The notes below the pieces were generated by a model. It was given only the letters and a program-made list of their open reading frames with translations, was not told where the DNA came from and did no database searches. From contig JANXYK010000064.1 in assembly GCA_025350055.1 (NCBI GenBank), positions 1 through 64,000 of the forward strand: a stretch of 64,000 nucleotides of DNA, written 5' to 3'. The number at the start of each line of letters is the position of its first letter. The first letter of the stretch is position 1. Position numbers and translations under genes: made by a program. Shown piece after piece: positions 24,276-44,652 of this stretch. Source of the DNA: Gammaproteobacteria bacterium (lineage in GTDB: Bacteria > Pseudomonadota > Gammaproteobacteria > Steroidobacterales > Steroidobacteraceae).

Positions 24276-25586
24276 TCAGTGCGTGCGCGCGGTCAAGGCA
24301 GCACAGTCGGCGCCCGCCACCAGCGATGCCACGGCCTGGCAGGCATTCACCGAGCGATTGGGCCCACTGCTGGTGTCTCTCGAATCGCTGGCATCCTGCA
24401 GCAGGCGCTGCAGGCGCGCGGCATCGAGACGCGCATCGCGCGCGAGCAGGAGCGCGGCAACACCCGAGATTTCCGCGGTTGATATCGAGCTGCCGGAGGA
24501 GAAGCCGTACTGGCCGCCGGGCGCCAGTGTCAGTACATCGCGCCCCGGCGCCTGCAGCAGGCCAGAGGCGACATCATGGTCTTCCGAGCGCGCCACGCTC
24601 AGCACCTGGGCCATGCCACCCGGGAAGGAGGGCGTGGCGGCGGCCGGGCCCACGATCACGATACCCTTGCGCATTGCCTGTTGCGCCAGCGCCGCCAGCA
24701 AGGGGTCGGGCGGGCCCGTCAGGCTCAGGTTGATGATCTGCGCGCGCAGGTCGACGGCGCTCGCCAGTGCCTGCGCCAGCGTGAAGGAATTGCAGCGCGC
24801 TTCGTCGCGCCCCTGTTGCAGCTGCCAGCAGGCCTTGAGCGCCAGCAGTTGCGCCTCGGGCGCTACCCCGACGACACCCTTGCCACCGCCGGCATTGGCG
24901 GCGAGCACGCCAGCGATCGCCGTGCCATGACGGTCGCGCTGGAACTGCTGCTGATCGTTGTCGACGAAATTGCGCTGTGCCTCGATGCGACCACGCAGGT
25001 CGGGATGGCTGCTATCCAGGCCGGTGTCGATCACTGCAATGCGGATGCCGCGCCCGGTGGAAAGCCGATGCGCGGCGCTGATCGACATGCGCTCGTTGCC
25101 CGCCTGTAGCCCGACATTTGCGTCCTCAGCGGTCTGCAACTCATAGGTGTTCAGGGGTTCGACCAGCCAGACGCGTGGATCCGCTTGCAGTTGCGCCAGC
25201 AGCTGCTCGCGCGTGGCGCCTTCCGGAATCGCAAACACGGCGCAATGCATGCGCAGCAGCGCGATGGGCCAGGCGGATACCTGCTGCAGCCGGTATTGCC
25301 TCGCCAGTGCCTTGAGCCCCCGACGCGCGGCATCGCTGACCGCATAGCCGCTGCCGCCACCGTAGGTGCGGGGCGTGCCGCCGCTGCGCAACAGTGTGGT
25401 CACTGGCTCATTGGCCACCGCCACCACGATGAAGCGCGAGTCGTCGCTACGCGTCGCGGCCAGCAGCTCAGCGCTGCTCCCCGCTGCCGCTGCCGGCACG
25501 AGCGCTGGCAATGCCGCGAACGCCAGCAACGCGGCGGCCAGTGCTGAGCAGTACCAACGCTGAACTTGCCGGTAACGCCAACTCAT
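24276..25586 (-). CDS. Secreted subtilase encoded in a sigma/anti-sigma operon
   Basis: A 436-residue S8 serine peptidase with an N-terminal signal peptide (about 1-36, ending AAAA) and so periplasmic or secreted. The catalytic triad residues are present: D187 (VIDTGLD), H220 (RDRHGTAIAGV) and S367 (SSGSSISTAEISG in place of GTSMAxP). A propeptide-like segment (about 90-145) ends in LAQLQADPRVWLVEP. The oxyanion-hole Asn normally seen as GND before GPAA is not visible (GIVIVGPAAATPSFPG), so activity may be reduced or atypical. The ATG overlaps the anti-sigma stop by one base (TGATG); the TTG three bases earlier is less likely. Its partner is probably the anti-sigma factor or its targets. Confidence 0.85.
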   Translation of the reverse strand: MSWRYRQVQRWYCSALAAALLAFAALPALVPAAAAGSSAELLAATRSDDSRFIVVAVANEPVTTLLRSGGTPRTYGGGSGYAVSDAARRGLKALARQYRLQQVSAWPIALLRMHCAVFAIPEGATREQLLAQLQADPRVWLVEPLNTYELQTAEDANVGLQAGNERMSISAAHRLSTGRGIRIAVIDTGLDSSHPDLRGRIEAQRNFVDNDQQQFQRDRHGTAIAGVLAANAGGGKGVVGVAPEAQLLALKACWQLQQGRDEARCNSFTLAQALASAVDLRAQIINLSLTGPPDPLLAALAQQAMRKGIVIVGPAAATPSFPGGMAQVLSVARSEDHDVASGLLQAPGRDVLTLAPGGQYGFSSGSSISTAEISGVAALLLARDARLDAARLQRLLQDASDSRDTSSGPNRSVNACQAVASLVAGADCAALTARTH

Positions 25587-26266
25587 CAATGGCCCAGTGA
25601 TTCGGCCGGCTCGCGCGGCGTCAATTCGGCGAAGCGCACCCGCGGGTCGGCACGCAGGCGCGTCAGCGCCGCGTGTGCTGCGGCACTGGAGCTGCTCTCG
25701 GCGCCGATCAGCGTGTACACGCCCGCGGCATTGGGGCCGCTGCTGATCAGCAGGTTGGTGCCAGCCAGTATTTCCTTCACATCGGCGAGGCGCACTTGAT
25801 CAGCGAAGATCGCCTTGATCTCGTCCACCGGTGCGCCGGCGCCCGGCTGCCCGGTCACCGTGCGATAGTCGGGCGTTACCTGAAATTGCTGCCGCTGCCA
25901 TAGCGCCGCACCCAGCAGCACGATACCCGCGGCCTGTGCAGCCACCAACAGATGCAGCCAGCGTGAGCCGCCGCGCGCAGGTACTTTCGCGCTGGCGACA
26001 GTACCGCCTGCGTCGGCGGCGTGCGGGTTGTCGAGGCTGGCATCGGACTCGATCTGCTTCCACAGGCGATTAAAGGATGCCTGCGGCGCGAATTCGACCA
26101 CCGGCTGCGAGGCCACGGCGTCGCGGATGCGTCGCTGCACGCGCTGTTCGGCACGGCAGTGTGCGCAGCTCTCGAGATGAGCGCTGAGCCAGGTCAGATC
26201 GTCGCCACTGAGGCGACCGATCACCTGCCAGGTGAGCAGCTCGGCGGCGCGTTCATGATCAGTCAC
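25586..26266 (-). CDS. Zinc-finger anti-sigma factor with propeptide-like periplasmic domain
   Basis: This 226-residue, single-span membrane protein has a cytoplasmic zinc-type anti-sigma domain with H30-x3-C34-x2-C37 (HLESCAHC), a membrane helix at about 103-123, and a periplasmic C-terminus. The last 70 residues (VKEILAGTNLLISSGP, GVYTLIG, LTRLRADPRVRFAELTP) read like a subtilase propeptide. The LxADPRVxxxE end is shared with the subtilase gene directly downstream. It starts at a GTG that overlaps the sigma stop (GTGA). It should hold the neighbouring ECF sigma factor inactive; the propeptide likeness is my reading and needs structural comparison. Confidence 0.82.
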   Translation of the reverse strand: MTDHERAAELLTWQVIGRLSGDDLTWLSAHLESCAHCRAEQRVQRRIRDAVASQPVVEFAPQASFNRLWKQIESDASLDNPHAADAGGTVASAKVPARGGSRWLHLLVAAQAAGIVLLGAALWQRQQFQVTPDYRTVTGQPGAGAPVDEIKAIFADQVRLADVKEILAGTNLLISSGPNAAGVYTLIGAESSSSAAAHAALTRLRADPRVRFAELTPREPAESLGH

Positions 26267-26853
26267 GGCGGAACCTCCACGCCAGCCAGGCCTGGCAATG
26301 CAGCGCGCAGTTTTTCGCGGGCGTGAAACAGTCGCGTCTTCACAGTGTTGACCGGGCAATCCATGATCAGCGCGATCTCTTCGCAGGAGTGCCCATAGCC
26401 ATAGGCGAACTCGACTGCGAGCCGTTGTTCGGCGGGCAGCTGCTGCATGGCGAGCAGGATCCACTCGCCCATTTCGGCCTCGCCCAGTTCATCAGGCGCC
26501 ACCAGCGGTTCGTTCTCGATCGGCACGGTGACGAGCGCCTGGTTGCCACGGCTGCGCAGTGTCTTGAGCGCGCGCCGGTAGGCAATGCCCATGATCCAGG
26601 TGGAGACACGCGAGTCGCCACGGAAGTCGGCGGCCTTGCGCCATACCACCCAGAGCGTGTCGTTGATGATTTCCTCGGCCAGCTCATAGCGGCGCGTGAG
26701 GCGCACCAGGAAGCGCGCCAGGCGGCGGTGGTAGATGATGTAAAGCTCGCGGAAGGCCTCGCGATCGCGCGCAGCGACCTTCACCAGCAACCGGCGGTCG
26801 CCGTCTTCACGTTGCTGTTGCAGCAGACTGATGGGTGCTGTCATGTGGGCCAT
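26263..26853 (-). CDS. ECF-type RNA polymerase sigma factor
   Basis: A 196-residue RpoE-like sigma factor. Region 2 lies at about 30-100 (FRELYIIYHRRLARFL, AEEIINDTLWVVWRKA, DSRVSTWIMGIAYRRAL) and region 4 at about 135-185 (LPAEQRLAVEFAYGYGHSCEEIA, CPVNTVKTRLFHAREKLR). There is no region 1 or 3, as expected for ECF factors. It is followed by a translationally coupled anti-sigma factor and a subtilase. A GAACC-N16-GTACT pair lies 20-45 bases upstream and may be its own promoter, partly inside the end of the TorF-type gene. A start at the second Met (26844) is also possible. Confidence 0.92.
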   Translation of the reverse strand: MAHMTAPISLLQQQREDGDRRLLVKVAARDREAFRELYIIYHRRLARFLVRLTRRYELAEEIINDTLWVVWRKAADFRGDSRVSTWIMGIAYRRALKTLRSRGNQALVTVPIENEPLVAPDELGEAEMGEWILLAMQQLPAEQRLAVEFAYGYGHSCEEIALIMDCPVNTVKTRLFHAREKLRAALPGLAGVEVPP

Positions 26854-26872
26854 ATTGGGCAGTTCAACGGTA

Positions 26873-26898
26873 AGTACCCGCGAAACAGCGCACGGTTC
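26873..26898 (-). promoter_or_regulatory. Candidate ECF promoter of the sigma operon
   Basis: On the minus strand GAACC (26898-26894) and GTACT (26877-26873) are separated by 16 bases, the spacing typical of ECF promoters. The same boxes with the same spacing occur before the haem-porin gene. This suggests that the sigma factor drives its own operon. Confidence 0.5.
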
Positions 26899-27661
26899 AG
26901 GGCGGCTCCTGGAAGCTCCAGCTTAAGGTCAGCGTCAGCGGGCCGCCCGCCTTGCCCTGGTTGAACCAGCGGTGAGCGGCGTTTTGGACTGCGATCCAGC
27001 TGAGGTCGGCACGCCACTTTGCATAATGCCAGACCAGTGAGGCGCTGCCGTAGGCGTAGGAGGCGTAGTCGATGTCACGCGGTCCGTAGAAGCCCACGCC
27101 TGCCAGCGCGTCCAGGTGCGCGCACAGGCTCCGGTGGGCTGCCAGCTCGAAGGTGTAGACGCGCTTGTCACGTTCAACTGTGTATCCATAGGTGGTGAAC
27201 AGGTTCACGGAGGGCGCATAGGCGACCGTGGCGTAGAGCTGGTCGCGCCAGGAGAGTGCCGCGGTGAATTCGTTGTAGTCGTAGTTGATGGGTCGTGAGT
27301 CGTGCGGGTAGGCGTAGTGCGTGCCACTCAGGGCCAGGTTGAAATCGCTCCCCAGCGGATGCGTCCATTGCAGGTAGCTGTCGAGTTCCACGCTGTGCCG
27401 GTGCGGCAGCAACTGCACCTGTGAACCCCAGAAGCCGAAGGACCAGCCTGGCGTGAACTGCAGGTGCAGATCACCCTGCAGCGCTGGGTCGCCGCGATTC
27501 TGCGAGATGCCGCGCAGCACGTAGTCGCTCGAGACGCCGATCGAACCGGCGACACTTGCACCCGCGGTCGCGGTGCCGGGCAGCGCGCTGATCAGGGCCA
27601 CCACCAGCGCGCCCAGCGCGCATCGACGCCATCCGTGGCTCAGCATTTGTGTCCGTTCCAT
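26897..27661 (-). CDS. TorF-family outer-membrane protein
   Basis: A 254-residue protein with a signal peptide (cleavage probably after ATA near residue 33) and a beta-rich body. The start of the mature part, GSIGVSSDYVLRGISQNRGDPALQG, is typical of the TorF / Gcw_chp family of outer-membrane proteins of unknown function. Alternating strands (YLQWTHPLGSDFNLALSGTHY, FTAALSWRDQLYATVAYAP) end in LTLTLSWSF, an outer-membrane C-terminal pattern. An ATG at 27646 is an alternative start. The gene lies 42 bases after the haem-porin gene and 43 bases before the sigma gene, all on one strand. The function of the family is not established. Confidence 0.78.
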   Translation of the reverse strand: MERTQMLSHGWRRCALGALVVALISALPGTATAGASVAGSIGVSSDYVLRGISQNRGDPALQGDLHLQFTPGWSFGFWGSQVQLLPHRHSVELDSYLQWTHPLGSDFNLALSGTHYAYPHDSRPINYDYNEFTAALSWRDQLYATVAYAPSVNLFTTYGYTVERDKRVYTFELAAHRSLCAHLDALAGVGFYGPRDIDYASYAYGSASLVWHYAKWRADLSWIAVQNAAHRWFNQGKAGGPLTLTLSWSFQEPP

Positions 27662-27703
27662 GTTGCGGCGAATTGTAAACGACCCACCGCTGGGGCACAC
27701 ACT

Positions 27704-28813
27704 TCATAGGTAGGCGTGCAACTCGACGAAGGCCAGGCGTGTAGCGGCAACGCTGTTCTGCGCAGCGCTGGTGTTGCGCGCGCCGGCACGCAGCTGCACG
27801 TAGGGAAGGGGCGTGTACTCGAGCACCACGCTGTGTCGCTGCTGCAGATCATCGGGGCGGTGTCGATCCGGATCCAGCCACTCGGTGGTCAGTTTCAGGT
27901 TCAGGCCTGTGGCCATGCGCCAATTGCACTCGAGCAGCGCCGCGGCGAACTGCGCGTCGCTGGCGTTGCTGCGCGTCGCCTGCACCAGGTCTGCCTCGGC
28001 CAGCCAGGCCAGAGGTCCGGTGCGCACACCAGCGAACAGCGCTGCCGAACGGCTGCGCGCCGCGGCATTGTCATTGCGATCGACGCCTGCGCCAATGCGC
28101 CAGCGACTGGCTACCCGCGTGAGCTGGAGACCATATTGCAGGCCGCTGCTCGCTGAACTGCCGCCTGCGAGGCCACCGCTGAGCGCGAACTGCGCTTCCC
28201 AGCGGCCTTGTTGCCAGCCCAGCTCGAAGGCGTTGTCCGGCGTATCCATGTTGATGCCGCTGAGCTGGCGCGTGTAGGCCTGCTGATCCTGCAGGCGCAG
28301 GCCAAAGGGCAGATACATGCGGCCCGCCTTGGCGTACCAATGTGCAGCACTGGCGCGATACAACACCCAGGCTTCACGGTTCATGGCGCTGTCAGGCGCG
28401 AGCTGCTCATCGACGTAGAACAACAGGCGCTCGGGCACCACTGATATGGCGAGATAGGCGCGCAACTGTTCGAGCTCGAGATTGCTGCGCGCGTCGCTGC
28501 CATCGAGATGCTGCCAGCTGGCCGCGGCCCGCAGGTCGGCACCGGCGGCGAACCATTGATTCACGCTGCCGTTCCAGGCCGGTGCGCTTTCCGGCAGCGC
28601 CCGCGCAGCCAGTTGCGTCTGTGCAATCGCATTGCCGAGCGCATTGCGGGCACCACCTCCCGTGGGATTCACGTGGCACTGCGCGCAGGCGAGCCCTTGT
28701 TGTACGGCGATGTAGGGCTCGGCAAGTGCACGCGTAGCTGGCAACGCAAGCCATGCAATGGCCAACAACATCGTCGGCGTGCGCGCCGCGCGGTGTTCGC
28801 GAATCCTGATCAT
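27704..28813 (-). CDS. Outer-membrane porin-like protein with N-terminal haem motif
   Basis: A 369-residue protein with a signal peptide (RALA near residue 31) followed at once by LACAQCHVNPTGGG, a CxxCH haem-attachment motif at 43-47. The remainder is a run of short amphipathic strands (GLQYGLQLTRVASRWRIGAG, LEYTPLPYVQLRAGARN) ending in LAFVELHAYL, consistent with a beta-barrel. One haem at the mouth of a barrel recalls Cyc2-type porin-cytochromes, but I cannot show common ancestry. It is divergent from a cytochrome-containing lipoprotein and upstream of the TorF-type, sigma and anti-sigma genes. Electron transfer across the outer membrane is a guess. Confidence 0.65.
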   Translation of the reverse strand: MIRIREHRAARTPTMLLAIAWLALPATRALAEPYIAVQQGLACAQCHVNPTGGGARNALGNAIAQTQLAARALPESAPAWNGSVNQWFAAGADLRAAASWQHLDGSDARSNLELEQLRAYLAISVVPERLLFYVDEQLAPDSAMNREAWVLYRASAAHWYAKAGRMYLPFGLRLQDQQAYTRQLSGINMDTPDNAFELGWQQGRWEAQFALSGGLAGGSSASSGLQYGLQLTRVASRWRIGAGVDRNDNAAARSRSAALFAGVRTGPLAWLAEADLVQATRSNASDAQFAAALLECNWRMATGLNLKLTTEWLDPDRHRPDDLQQRHSVVLEYTPLPYVQLRAGARNTSAAQNSVAATRLAFVELHAYL

Positions 28814-28820
28814 GCGCTTG

Positions 28821-28846
28821 AGTACCGAGTCCAGCGTGTTTGGTTC
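28821..28846 (-). promoter_or_regulatory. Candidate ECF promoter of the haem-porin gene
   Basis: On the minus strand GAACC (28846-28842), 16 bases and GTACT (28825-28821) exactly repeat the boxes before the sigma gene. The -10 box ends only eight bases before the ATG, so the transcript would be nearly leaderless. The -35 box overlaps GTTCTCAGAAC, a short palindrome whose other half (GAACT, 28850-28854) points toward the divergent gene, with GCACT 17 bases further on at 28872. Confidence 0.5.
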
Positions 28847-42483: not shown

Positions 42484-44652
42484 TCAAACTGTTGTGGCTT
42501 GCCGGCGACGCCGGCTCGTGATAGCGAGCAGGCAGGCGCCGGCCAGGCAGGCCAGCACAGCCAGGTCCACGCTGCCACTGCCGCTGCTGGATGGCGACTC
42601 GGTGCCGGCGATGGTCTTGGAGGCCTGCGCCTGCCGACCGGCATCGTCAGTCACGGTGAGCGTGACGGTCAGCGGCCGCAAGGCCGGGAATACCAGCGAG
42701 GCCGACGCCGTGGCGGCATTCGCAATCGAGACCGCGGGGTCGGCGCTCCACTGGTAGCTGGCAACGGTGTAGCCGCGCGCGGCGCTGCTGCCGGTTCCGT
42801 CCAGCGTGACGGTTTGACCGACCGTGGCCTTGTCCGTCGAGGTCACGATACTGGCGTTGGGCAGTAGCGCGGCCGCCACGGCGGCGGCGGCGTTGACCAT
42901 GCCGGCCCCGCAGGTGGCGGTCGTGCACTGGCATTCATCGGCATTCTGCACATCGGTGAATTTGCCGTTGGCATCTTTCGTGAGCGAGGCCACGTGGCAG
43001 ACGCCGCCGGTGGGTGGCGTTGCAGGCACCGGGAAGGGCGTGGCCGATGACTGCATGCGGGCGATGAGTTCGCTGGCGGTGAGCTTGTCATTAGCCTGCA
43101 CCATCAGCGCAGCGACGCCAGCAACGATGGGTGCCGCGAAACTGGTGCCCAGCGTGCCCTCGTTCTCGTAGTTGACGCCGCTCCCCTGGTTGAGGATCGA
43201 ATAGGTGTAAGTGGGGCTCGCTGGTGAGGTCAAGCCGGCATTGCTGGTGGTCTCAATCGAAAACTGGCAGGGCAGGGTCCAGGGACGGTTGCCGACCACG
43301 TTGAAGCAGTTGCCCGCGGGTGCGCCGATGCTGATGGCCGCGGCGGTACTGCTGACATTGCTGTAGCCGACCTTGGTGCCGACATGGCGCAGGCCTGCCA
43401 CCGACAGCACGCCCTTGCAGTTCGCCGGAGCGCCGACCGGGCCGCCGTCGTTCCCCGAAGCCGCCACGATCAGGTGACCATCCTGGTTGATGGCGGTCAC
43501 GGCATCCTGTTCGGTCTGCGTGCAGCTGTCGCTGGCGCCGAGGCTGAGATTGAGGATGTGCGCCGGCGTGGGATTGCTGGCCACGCCGGTGATCGGCGAG
43601 TACGTGAGCCCTGCCGCCCAATACATGCCGGCCACGATGTCGGAGATGTAGCCGCCGCATTTGCCGATCACGCGCACGGGCTGGATGAGCGCACCTGGCG
43701 CCACGCCCGCGATGCCAGTGCCATTGTTGGTGATCGCAGCGGCGATGCCAGCCACACGCGTGCCATGCCAGCTGCTGTCGATGTGATGATCGGTATTGTT
43801 GGGGTCTGAATAGTCGCCGCAGCCCGGAAAGTTCCCGCTCTGCACGTCGGTGGCACTGATCCAGTCGCCAGGATCGGTGGCATCGGCATCCCAGCCATCC
43901 CCATCGTTGGCAACCAGGAAGGTGTGGCTCGCCGCCATCGACAGGCAGTCGGTGCCCGAATCGTTGCAGATGAAATCGCGGCCCGGCAGCAACGTGCCGG
44001 TGCCGCCTGGCGTATACACGCCGAGATCCGGGTGCGTGTAATCCACGCCGGTATCGATCACGGCGATGATGAGCCCGGTGCCGAGGATCGGCGCGGCCGG
44101 TACGCCGGCGCGGATCTTCCAGGCGCTGGTGGCACTGATCGCCGAGAGCGTGTCGCCATAAGTGGCATCGCTCACGGGCGTCTGCAGGTACCACTGGCCG
44201 CGCCAGTCGCCGTTGGCATCGCTGCCGGCGGTGAAGCGCGGATCGTTGGGCGGGTCATCCGGAAAGGCGAGGATGTAGCGGCGCGCATCGGCCTCGACGT
44301 ATTCCACCGTGGGGTCATTGCGCAGGCGCGACAGCGTCTGGCGCAACGCTTCGCCCCGCTGCGGCGACTCGAGGCGTATCACATCCAGCCGGTCACGGAT
44401 CGCGTGCAACGCGGTCAGCTTCAGTCCGCTCATCTGGCTCAAGGCAGCGGCGCGCGCGCTCGGATCCTGGATATGCGAGGCGGCCACGCCGCTGCTGCGC
44501 CACTTGACGATGACCCGATCGGTGGAGCCGCGCTGTGACACATGGCCGCGCCATGGCGCGGCCTGCGCCGCCGTCGCCAGCGCTGTTGCCAGCAGCAGCG
44601 TCAGCAGGTGCCGGAGGCAAGCGTGGCGCGGCGGCTTTGACAGGGGATCCAT
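42484..44652 (-). CDS. Secreted S8 subtilase with GlyGly-CTERM-like tail
   Basis: A 722-residue protein with a signal peptide (ATAAQA near 31) and an I9-like propeptide (about 45-122, LSRLRNDPTVEYVEAD). The catalytic domain has D200 (VIDTGVDYTHPD), H296 (SWHGTRVAG), oxyanion N401 (AASGNDGG) and S504 (GTSFAAPIVAG). A PKD-like domain lies at about 595-680. The tail is a Ser/Gly stretch, a membrane helix (VDLAVLACLAGACLLAI) and RRRR, resembling GlyGly-CTERM sorting signals cut by rhombosortase. Several Cys pairs suggest disulfides. It is complete, unlike the atypical subtilase near the sigma operon. Confidence 0.9.
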   Translation of the reverse strand: MDPLSKPPRHACLRHLLTLLLATALATAAQAAPWRGHVSQRGSTDRVIVKWRSSGVAASHIQDPSARAAALSQMSGLKLTALHAIRDRLDVIRLESPQRGEALRQTLSRLRNDPTVEYVEADARRYILAFPDDPPNDPRFTAGSDANGDWRGQWYLQTPVSDATYGDTLSAISATSAWKIRAGVPAAPILGTGLIIAVIDTGVDYTHPDLGVYTPGGTGTLLPGRDFICNDSGTDCLSMAASHTFLVANDGDGWDADATDPGDWISATDVQSGNFPGCGDYSDPNNTDHHIDSSWHGTRVAGIAAAITNNGTGIAGVAPGALIQPVRVIGKCGGYISDIVAGMYWAAGLTYSPITGVASNPTPAHILNLSLGASDSCTQTEQDAVTAINQDGHLIVAASGNDGGPVGAPANCKGVLSVAGLRHVGTKVGYSNVSSTAAAISIGAPAGNCFNVVGNRPWTLPCQFSIETTSNAGLTSPASPTYTYSILNQGSGVNYENEGTLGTSFAAPIVAGVAALMVQANDKLTASELIARMQSSATPFPVPATPPTGGVCHVASLTKDANGKFTDVQNADECQCTTATCGAGMVNAAAAVAAALLPNASIVTSTDKATVGQTVTLDGTGSSAARGYTVASYQWSADPAVSIANAATASASLVFPALRPLTVTLTVTDDAGRQAQASKTIAGTESPSSSGSGSVDLAVLACLAGACLLAITSRRRRQATTV

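Follow-up and report, generated by a model that had tools for sequence, protein, structure and literature searches.

Among alternative sigma factors, those of the extracytoplasmic function (ECF) type form the largest group, and most of them still lack an identified signal and sensor. How such a signal could be received was the question raised by three genes at positions 24276-26853 (minus strand) of a 64,000-nucleotide stretch of DNA from a Gammaproteobacteria bacterium of the Steroidobacteraceae (contig JANXYK010000064.1; the whole stretch is hereafter the window). They encode an ECF sigma factor, a membrane anti-sigma factor and an S8 subtilase, and a reading made from the letters alone (the sequence-only reading) had proposed that the subtilase may dock on a propeptide-like domain of the anti-sigma factor, either cutting it to free the sigma factor or being held inactive by it. 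Our analysis showed that this trio of an ECF sigma factor, a zinc-type membrane anti-sigma factor and an exported subtilase, usually beside a TorF-family porin, is conserved and probably an envelope-signalling operon, and that the periplasmic domain of the anti-sigma factor is homologous to S8 propeptides, including that of the adjoining subtilase. The parts of the trio were as follows.

26263-26853, minus strand: ECF sigma factor of 196 amino acids with regions 2 and 4 (Pfam PF04542, PF08281 and PF04545, and TIGR02937, all above cut-off)
25586-26266, minus strand: membrane anti-sigma factor of 226 amino acids with a GTG start, an HxxxCxxC motif and one hydrophobic segment
25898-25960, minus strand: transmembrane segment of the anti-sigma factor, residues 103-123 (WLHLLVAAQAAGIVLLGAALW), assigned by eye from the sequence
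25589-25822, minus strand: propeptide (I9)-like periplasmic domain of the anti-sigma factor, residue 149 to the C-terminus (hhalign, AlphaFold and profile matches)
24276-25586, minus strand: S8 subtilase of 436 amino acids with its own N-terminal prodomain (PF00082, 105.8 bits; AlphaFold predicted local distance difference test, pLDDT, 86.9)
25155-25433, minus strand: S8 prodomain, residues 52-144 (AlphaFold secondary structure)

The layout and both translational couplings of the sequence-only reading were confirmed: the sigma stop and the anti-sigma start overlap in GTGA at 26263-26266, and the anti-sigma stop and the S8 start in TGATG at 25584-25588 (window positions, minus strand). The three peptides that it had quoted for the resemblance were also exact, namely LTRLRADPRVRFAELTP at anti-sigma residues 201-217, LAQLQADPRVWLVEPLN at S8 residues 130-146, and LSRLRNDPTVEYVEAD at residues 107-122 of a second subtilase of the window (42484-44652, minus strand). 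The latter has a PKD domain, and its propeptide is likewise of this type. With a cytoplasmic HxxxCxxC motif and a gene that overlaps that of an ECF sigma factor, the anti-sigma factor belongs to the zinc-type (ZAS) membrane anti-sigma factors; the relatives examined likewise had a sigma gene adjoining. H30, C34 and C37 of the motif were invariant in a 25-row family alignment, the cysteines being lost in some distant members, and a weak zf-HC2 match lay under the Pfam cut-off. By analogy with its family, the protein would bind and inhibit its sigma factor. Its periplasmic part comprises about 100 residues. A plasmid search returned no match.

The homology was carried by profile comparison. When a 25-row profile of the anti-sigma C-terminal domain was compared by hhalign with a 27-row profile of the adjoining S8 prodomain, the probability was 91.5% (expect value, E, 8.8e-7), and 92.5% (E 4.9e-7) in the reverse direction. 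The two control comparisons gave 1.4% (anti-sigma domain with the catalytic domain of S8) and 0.3% (cytoplasmic part of the anti-sigma factor with the S8 prodomain). The domain profile was also run against the 13,196 open reading frames (ORFs) of all fetched loci, of which 171 (1.3%) encode S8 proteins. Outside anti-sigma-like proteins nearly all matches were S8 ORFs, matched in the propeptide and covering its last part, mostly strand 3, helix 2 and strand 4. Across 399 genomes of the phylum, a 60-sequence domain profile matched mainly anti-sigma genes, and the two weakest among the matches listed (G806 and G811) were very large S8 proteins matched 5' of the catalytic domain. A single anti-sigma sequence matched the propeptide of an S8 protein in genome G006, which resembles the second subtilase of the window. 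Strand 4 carried a Glu or Gln at one and the same position in both families (50 of 60 anti-sigma domains, 51 of 56 S8 prodomains); in the pro-subtilisin BPN' complex this Glu caps a protease helix. The anti-sigma chain usually ends 4-10 residues past it, about where a cleaved propeptide ends.

Structure prediction gave the same picture. The sequence-only reading had called for both the anti-sigma end and the S8 prodomain to be compared with the I9 fold, and AlphaFold predicted one beta-alpha-beta-beta-alpha-beta plait for the two (anti-sigma domain, E21-26 H32-42 E44-48 E55-60 H66-78 E82-88, core pLDDT about 90; S8 prodomain, E52-58 H85-97 E101-108 E113-119 H126-135 E139-144); an unrelated fold was not seen. 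A fold search of the PDB with the anti-sigma domain retrieved numerous alpha/beta plaits; pro-subtilisin ranked second, and among the 50 PDB matches listed the top target-normalised template modelling score (TM-score), 0.65, belonged to the free propeptides 3cnq_P and 1scj_B. A PDB sequence search gave weak matches, the top three of which include 7mp7 (Sb3, E 0.12), which we take to be a designed subtilisin-prodomain derivative, and 8c4z (an 'extracellular serine proteinase' chain, E 0.56). The domain was unrecognised by Pfam and NCBIfam, and neither the anti-sigma factor nor either subtilase of the window had a Pfam I9 (Inhibitor_I9) match at E up to 1.

It could be argued that the resemblance is coincidental and arises from a ferredoxin-like fold shared by many proteins together with the short motif LxxLRxDPRVxxxE of a helix and a strand. 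The alpha/beta plait is very common, ribosomal protein S6, BLUF and ACT domains scored about as well as propeptides in the fold search, which alone is unspecific, and the lack of an I9 match in Pfam points the same way. However, coincidence leaves the profile-profile E of 8.8e-7 with its clean controls unaccounted for, and the profile matches outside anti-sigma-like proteins were S8 propeptides and not other ferredoxin-like proteins. Because it comes from sequence and not from the fold, the assignment to propeptides is specific. The controlled profile comparison and the search of all ORFs led us to reject chance similarity as already largely refuted, and we consider it very improbable. The propeptide-like domain claimed from the letters was thus supported by hhalign, by the ORF-wide profile matches and by the predicted topology, and its homology to S8 propeptides is close to certain.

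The association between the domain and the subtilase was then evaluated across genomes, as the sequence-only reading had suggested. The trio was found in about two dozen families of Pseudomonadota and in Acidobacteriota. Within the taxonomic order to which the window belongs, sigma factor, anti-sigma factor and S8 occurred together in all 27 loci that were not truncated by the end of a contig; S8 was present at 16 loci and absent at 5 in a class-wide sample, and present at 23 and absent at 2 in a phylum-wide sample. Overall, by our own tally, in which related genomes are not independent, S8 adjoined 66 of 73 anti-sigma factors bearing the domain. The controls were 35 sigma/anti-sigma loci from the same class in which the anti-sigma match was confined to the cytoplasmic part, and one of them had an S8 gene at a distance of up to about 4 kb. 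The tally leaves out three low-scoring loci (L219, L220 and L222) whose proteins were not callable as anti-sigma factors. The single control with an S8 (L244) has an anti-sigma factor with, by eye, a divergent version of the domain. The search from the S8 side reached Luteibacter, Dyella, Rhodanobacter, Xanthomonas, Massilia, Duganella, Paucibacter, Rubrivivax, Nevskia, Steroidobacteraceae, Spongiibacteraceae and Acidobacteriota, and the S8 family members that it returned have a sigma/anti-sigma pair adjoining; L097 is cut at the contig end with the domain visible upstream. No natural fusion of anti-sigma factor and S8 was seen. A tight genetic link was thus supported, and we hold it very likely that S8 and the anti-sigma factor are functional partners.

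A fourth partner and a candidate promoter were found upstream of the sigma gene, together with a second copy of the promoter motif:

26871-26899, minus strand: putative autoregulatory ECF-type promoter TGAACC-N16-GTACTTA, upstream of the sigma gene
26897-27700, minus strand: TorF family putative porin (TIGR02001/PF09694), the fourth partner of the trio
28819-28846, minus strand: second copy of the promoter motif, GAACC-N16-GTACTCA, directly 5' of gene 27704-28813 (genome motif scan)

In 41 of 45 subfamily-A loci (L035-L054, L086-L106, L177-L182) the sigma gene had a TorF-family porin gene close by, usually directly upstream on the same strand; such a gene was found in none of the 35 control loci and beside none of the other pair types examined. 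The fairly strict pattern [GC]AACC-N16-G[TC]ACT[CT]A preceded the sigma gene in 26 of 51 loci, with 0.015 matches expected per 250 nucleotides; the spacer was 16 in 22 of these 26 loci, and the motif was also recovered in scans of the genomes themselves. The promoter of the sigma gene is thus conserved and presumably autoregulatory. In a rearranged Acidobacteriota locus (L091) the motif stands directly before S8, so that S8 is at least likely to be a regulon member. The source genome contained five strict matches, including that at 28819-28846, compared to three for the reversed control pattern, and as the genome-wide number is near that of the control the other sites were not interpreted. The gene at 27704-28813, standing behind the perfect second copy, is likely a further regulon member. 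Its product has 369 amino acids, a CxxCH motif and a weak match to the LbtU siderophore porin. Taken as promoter evidence, the motif suggests that S8 and outer-membrane proteins belong to the regulon.

What the subtilase could do to its partner depends on its active site, where one residue was missing:

24633-24650, minus strand: oxyanion-hole region GPAAAT of S8, residues 313-318, without the usual Asn (alignment)
25853-25867, minus strand: juxtamembrane motif Y-x-T-[LV]-[ST] of the anti-sigma factor (YRTVT, residues 134-138; alignment)

The catalytic Asp187, His220 and Ser367 were present in the window S8 and invariant in the S8 alignment. The oxyanion Asn was absent from the window S8 and from every aligned member of its subfamily (about 50 sequences), and was kept (AGN/GN) in L074 and in the S8 proteins with long N-termini of L171, L172, L174 and L176. 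The latter fall in a second trio subfamily (L169-L176 and L183), whose S8 proteins have long N-termini, some of them with IPT/TIG-like parts, and keep the full catalytic site with its Asn. Subtilisin without the oxyanion Asn works orders of magnitude more slowly; the window S8 is therefore likely to be a slow enzyme, one of a single turnover, or a binder that has processed itself, and efficient cutting of the anti-sigma factor is less likely. Judged from these residues, loss of the Asn alongside kept Asp, His and Ser is more in keeping with a binder than with a turnover enzyme. The best PDB match of the S8 model was unprocessed pro-subtilisin E (3whi, E 5.5e-22), and since the model is closest to an uncleaved pro-subtilisin its prodomain-binding face appears intact.

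These data bear on the cutting arm of the original proposal, in which the subtilase is a site-1 protease that docks on the domain and slowly cuts the anti-sigma factor, after which site-2 proteolysis frees the sigma factor. The slow degradation of a propeptide in trans by its own mature subtilase offers an analogy; the aligned S8 proteins retain Asp, His and Ser, and in partners of the TIG and L074 types the active site is complete, with the Asn in place. The anti-sigma factor has a conserved, exposed juxtamembrane segment, whose strict Y-x-T-[LV]-[ST] motif was present in 41 of 50 subfamily-A anti-sigma factors and in none of 4 without S8 or of 6 of the TIG type, and which is a possible cleavage or contact site. 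Another protease-type gene, of family C14, occupies the position of S8 in two lineages. However, the oxyanion Asn is missing across the window's subfamily, and a protease induced by the sigma factor that it frees would form a runaway loop unless braked. The cutting arm was thus weakened in the window's subfamily, though the kept Asp, His and Ser speak for it, and we regard a site-1 role as unlikely.

The explanation that we favour as a whole, at a rough probability of 0.4, is that the propeptide-like domain, when occupied by the subtilase, acts as a periplasmic gate on the sigma factor. The mature subtilase would bind the membrane-tethered domain with the face that it uses for its own propeptide, so that the anti-sigma factor and subtilase together form the gate. 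In the window's subfamily the subtilase would most likely be a weak enzyme, able to process itself and thereafter mainly a bound regulator, comparable to the co-anti-sigma factor RseB/MucB or to PCSK9, which processes itself and then acts as a binder. The occupancy of the domain by the subtilase may shift with a signal, perhaps the state of the envelope or of the partner porin, and the changed occupancy would expose the anti-sigma factor to regulated proteolysis and free the sigma factor. Because the Asn is lost and the genes are co-transcribed, such a gate is favoured over a site-1 protease in the window's subfamily. Direct docking of S8 on the anti-sigma domain is judged probable. More tentatively, the propeptide may have been recruited as an anti-sigma sensor by which the cell reads the amount or maturation of an exported subtilase, nearly inactive and self-processing in the window's subfamily, that would in turn report on the envelope or the TorF porin; this would be a general two-part receptor of Pseudomonadota and Acidobacteriota, with caspase-like replacements in some lineages.

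Several observations weigh against this gate. The first is the occurrence of pairs lacking a nearby subtilase, which the sequence-only reading had named as telling against its proposal. The linkage holds in most loci, but a minority keeps the domain without S8: three orphan pairs of one family (L165, L166 and L181, in G408, G187 and G308:C54) retain a strong domain with no S8 within 5-7 kb, G395 and G817 likewise keep the domain with none in that range, and in G408 and G187 no S8 match was obtained genome-wide with the S8 profile used. In L167 (G344) and L221 (G689), a caspase-family (Peptidase_C14) gene directly downstream replaces S8. Since orphan pairs and C14 pairs keep the domain, it is strongly but not strictly tied to S8. 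Secondly, the TIG-type S8 proteins beside related anti-sigma factors keep the Asn, so that a non-catalytic role cannot hold for all. Thirdly, co-variation, which had been suggested as a test, gave a weak signal, though in the right direction. In partial correlations of evolutionary distances for five domains at 54 loci, the anti-sigma C-terminal domain was linked most strongly to the catalytic domain of S8 (0.34; bootstrap 95% range 0.09-0.50), compared to 0.10 for the sigma factor and -0.10 for the anti-sigma factor's own cytoplasmic part. The unspecific fold search described above is a further point on this side. In G408 and G187, the orphan pair adjoins dapB- and carA-like genes.

The same exceptions would suit a domain that is an independent sensor of ancient propeptide origin without protease contact, S8 and the TorF porin being only outputs of the sigma factor. 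The domain is kept in orphan and caspase pairs, S8 at L091 has its own copy of the sigma promoter, and the motif also precedes the gene at 27704-28813. Yet the domain is associated with S8 across many families, far above the level of general sigma/anti-sigma pairs, and an output role alone leaves unexplained why the domain originates from that very protease family. On balance, an independent sensor is about as improbable as a site-1 protease.

The trio was also compared with known systems. Like I9-type propeptides and free inhibitors such as yeast proteinase B inhibitor 2 and Pleurotus POIA1, the trio domain has the beta-alpha-beta-beta-alpha-beta plait, profile-level homology and a chain end near the cleavage position; unlike them, it is attached to the inner membrane, where it forms the sensory end of an anti-sigma factor, and it has no Pfam I9 match. 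With RseA-RseB-DegS and MucA-MucB the trio shares an ECF sigma factor, a membrane anti-sigma factor, a co-transcribed periplasmic regulator and presumed proteolytic control, but its periplasmic partner is a subtilase instead of RseB, its sensor is propeptide-like, and its anti-sigma factor is of the zinc type (HxxxCxxC). PCSK9 and the C. difficile germination pseudoproteases CspC/CspA likewise use the subtilase fold mainly for binding or signalling, whereas the trio S8 keeps Asp, His and Ser, loses only the oxyanion Asn and has an anti-sigma factor as its partner. No description of the anti-sigma/subtilase arrangement was found in the literature searched, although the 2021 ECF re-classification may carry a bare mention of S8 near some ECF group. 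The nearest literature precedent is the context of ECF54 sigma factors, which have subtilase, carboxypeptidase or CHAT genes nearby and are described as regulated without an anti-sigma factor (PMC8999054). Subtilase or caspase-like genes near an ECF sigma gene are common to both, but the trio loci, including the window, have an anti-sigma gene with a propeptide-like domain, and it is by this gene context that the two are set apart.

Through the homology, the sensor domain of a whole anti-sigma family is traced to proteins whose binding partner is well understood and is here encoded by the adjoining gene. A directly testable hypothesis of binding between S8 and the domain, a predicted regulon promoter motif and a fourth component, the TorF porin, follow from the trio. 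If the gate is true, a propeptide, normally a disposable folding aid, would have been turned into a signal receiver, an unusual case. The domain was also seen outside callable anti-sigma factors: the proteins of L219, L220 and L222, of unknown family, carry it including the GP motif, with two domain proteins in tandem after a sigma-like gene in L222 and two on opposite strands beside one in L220.

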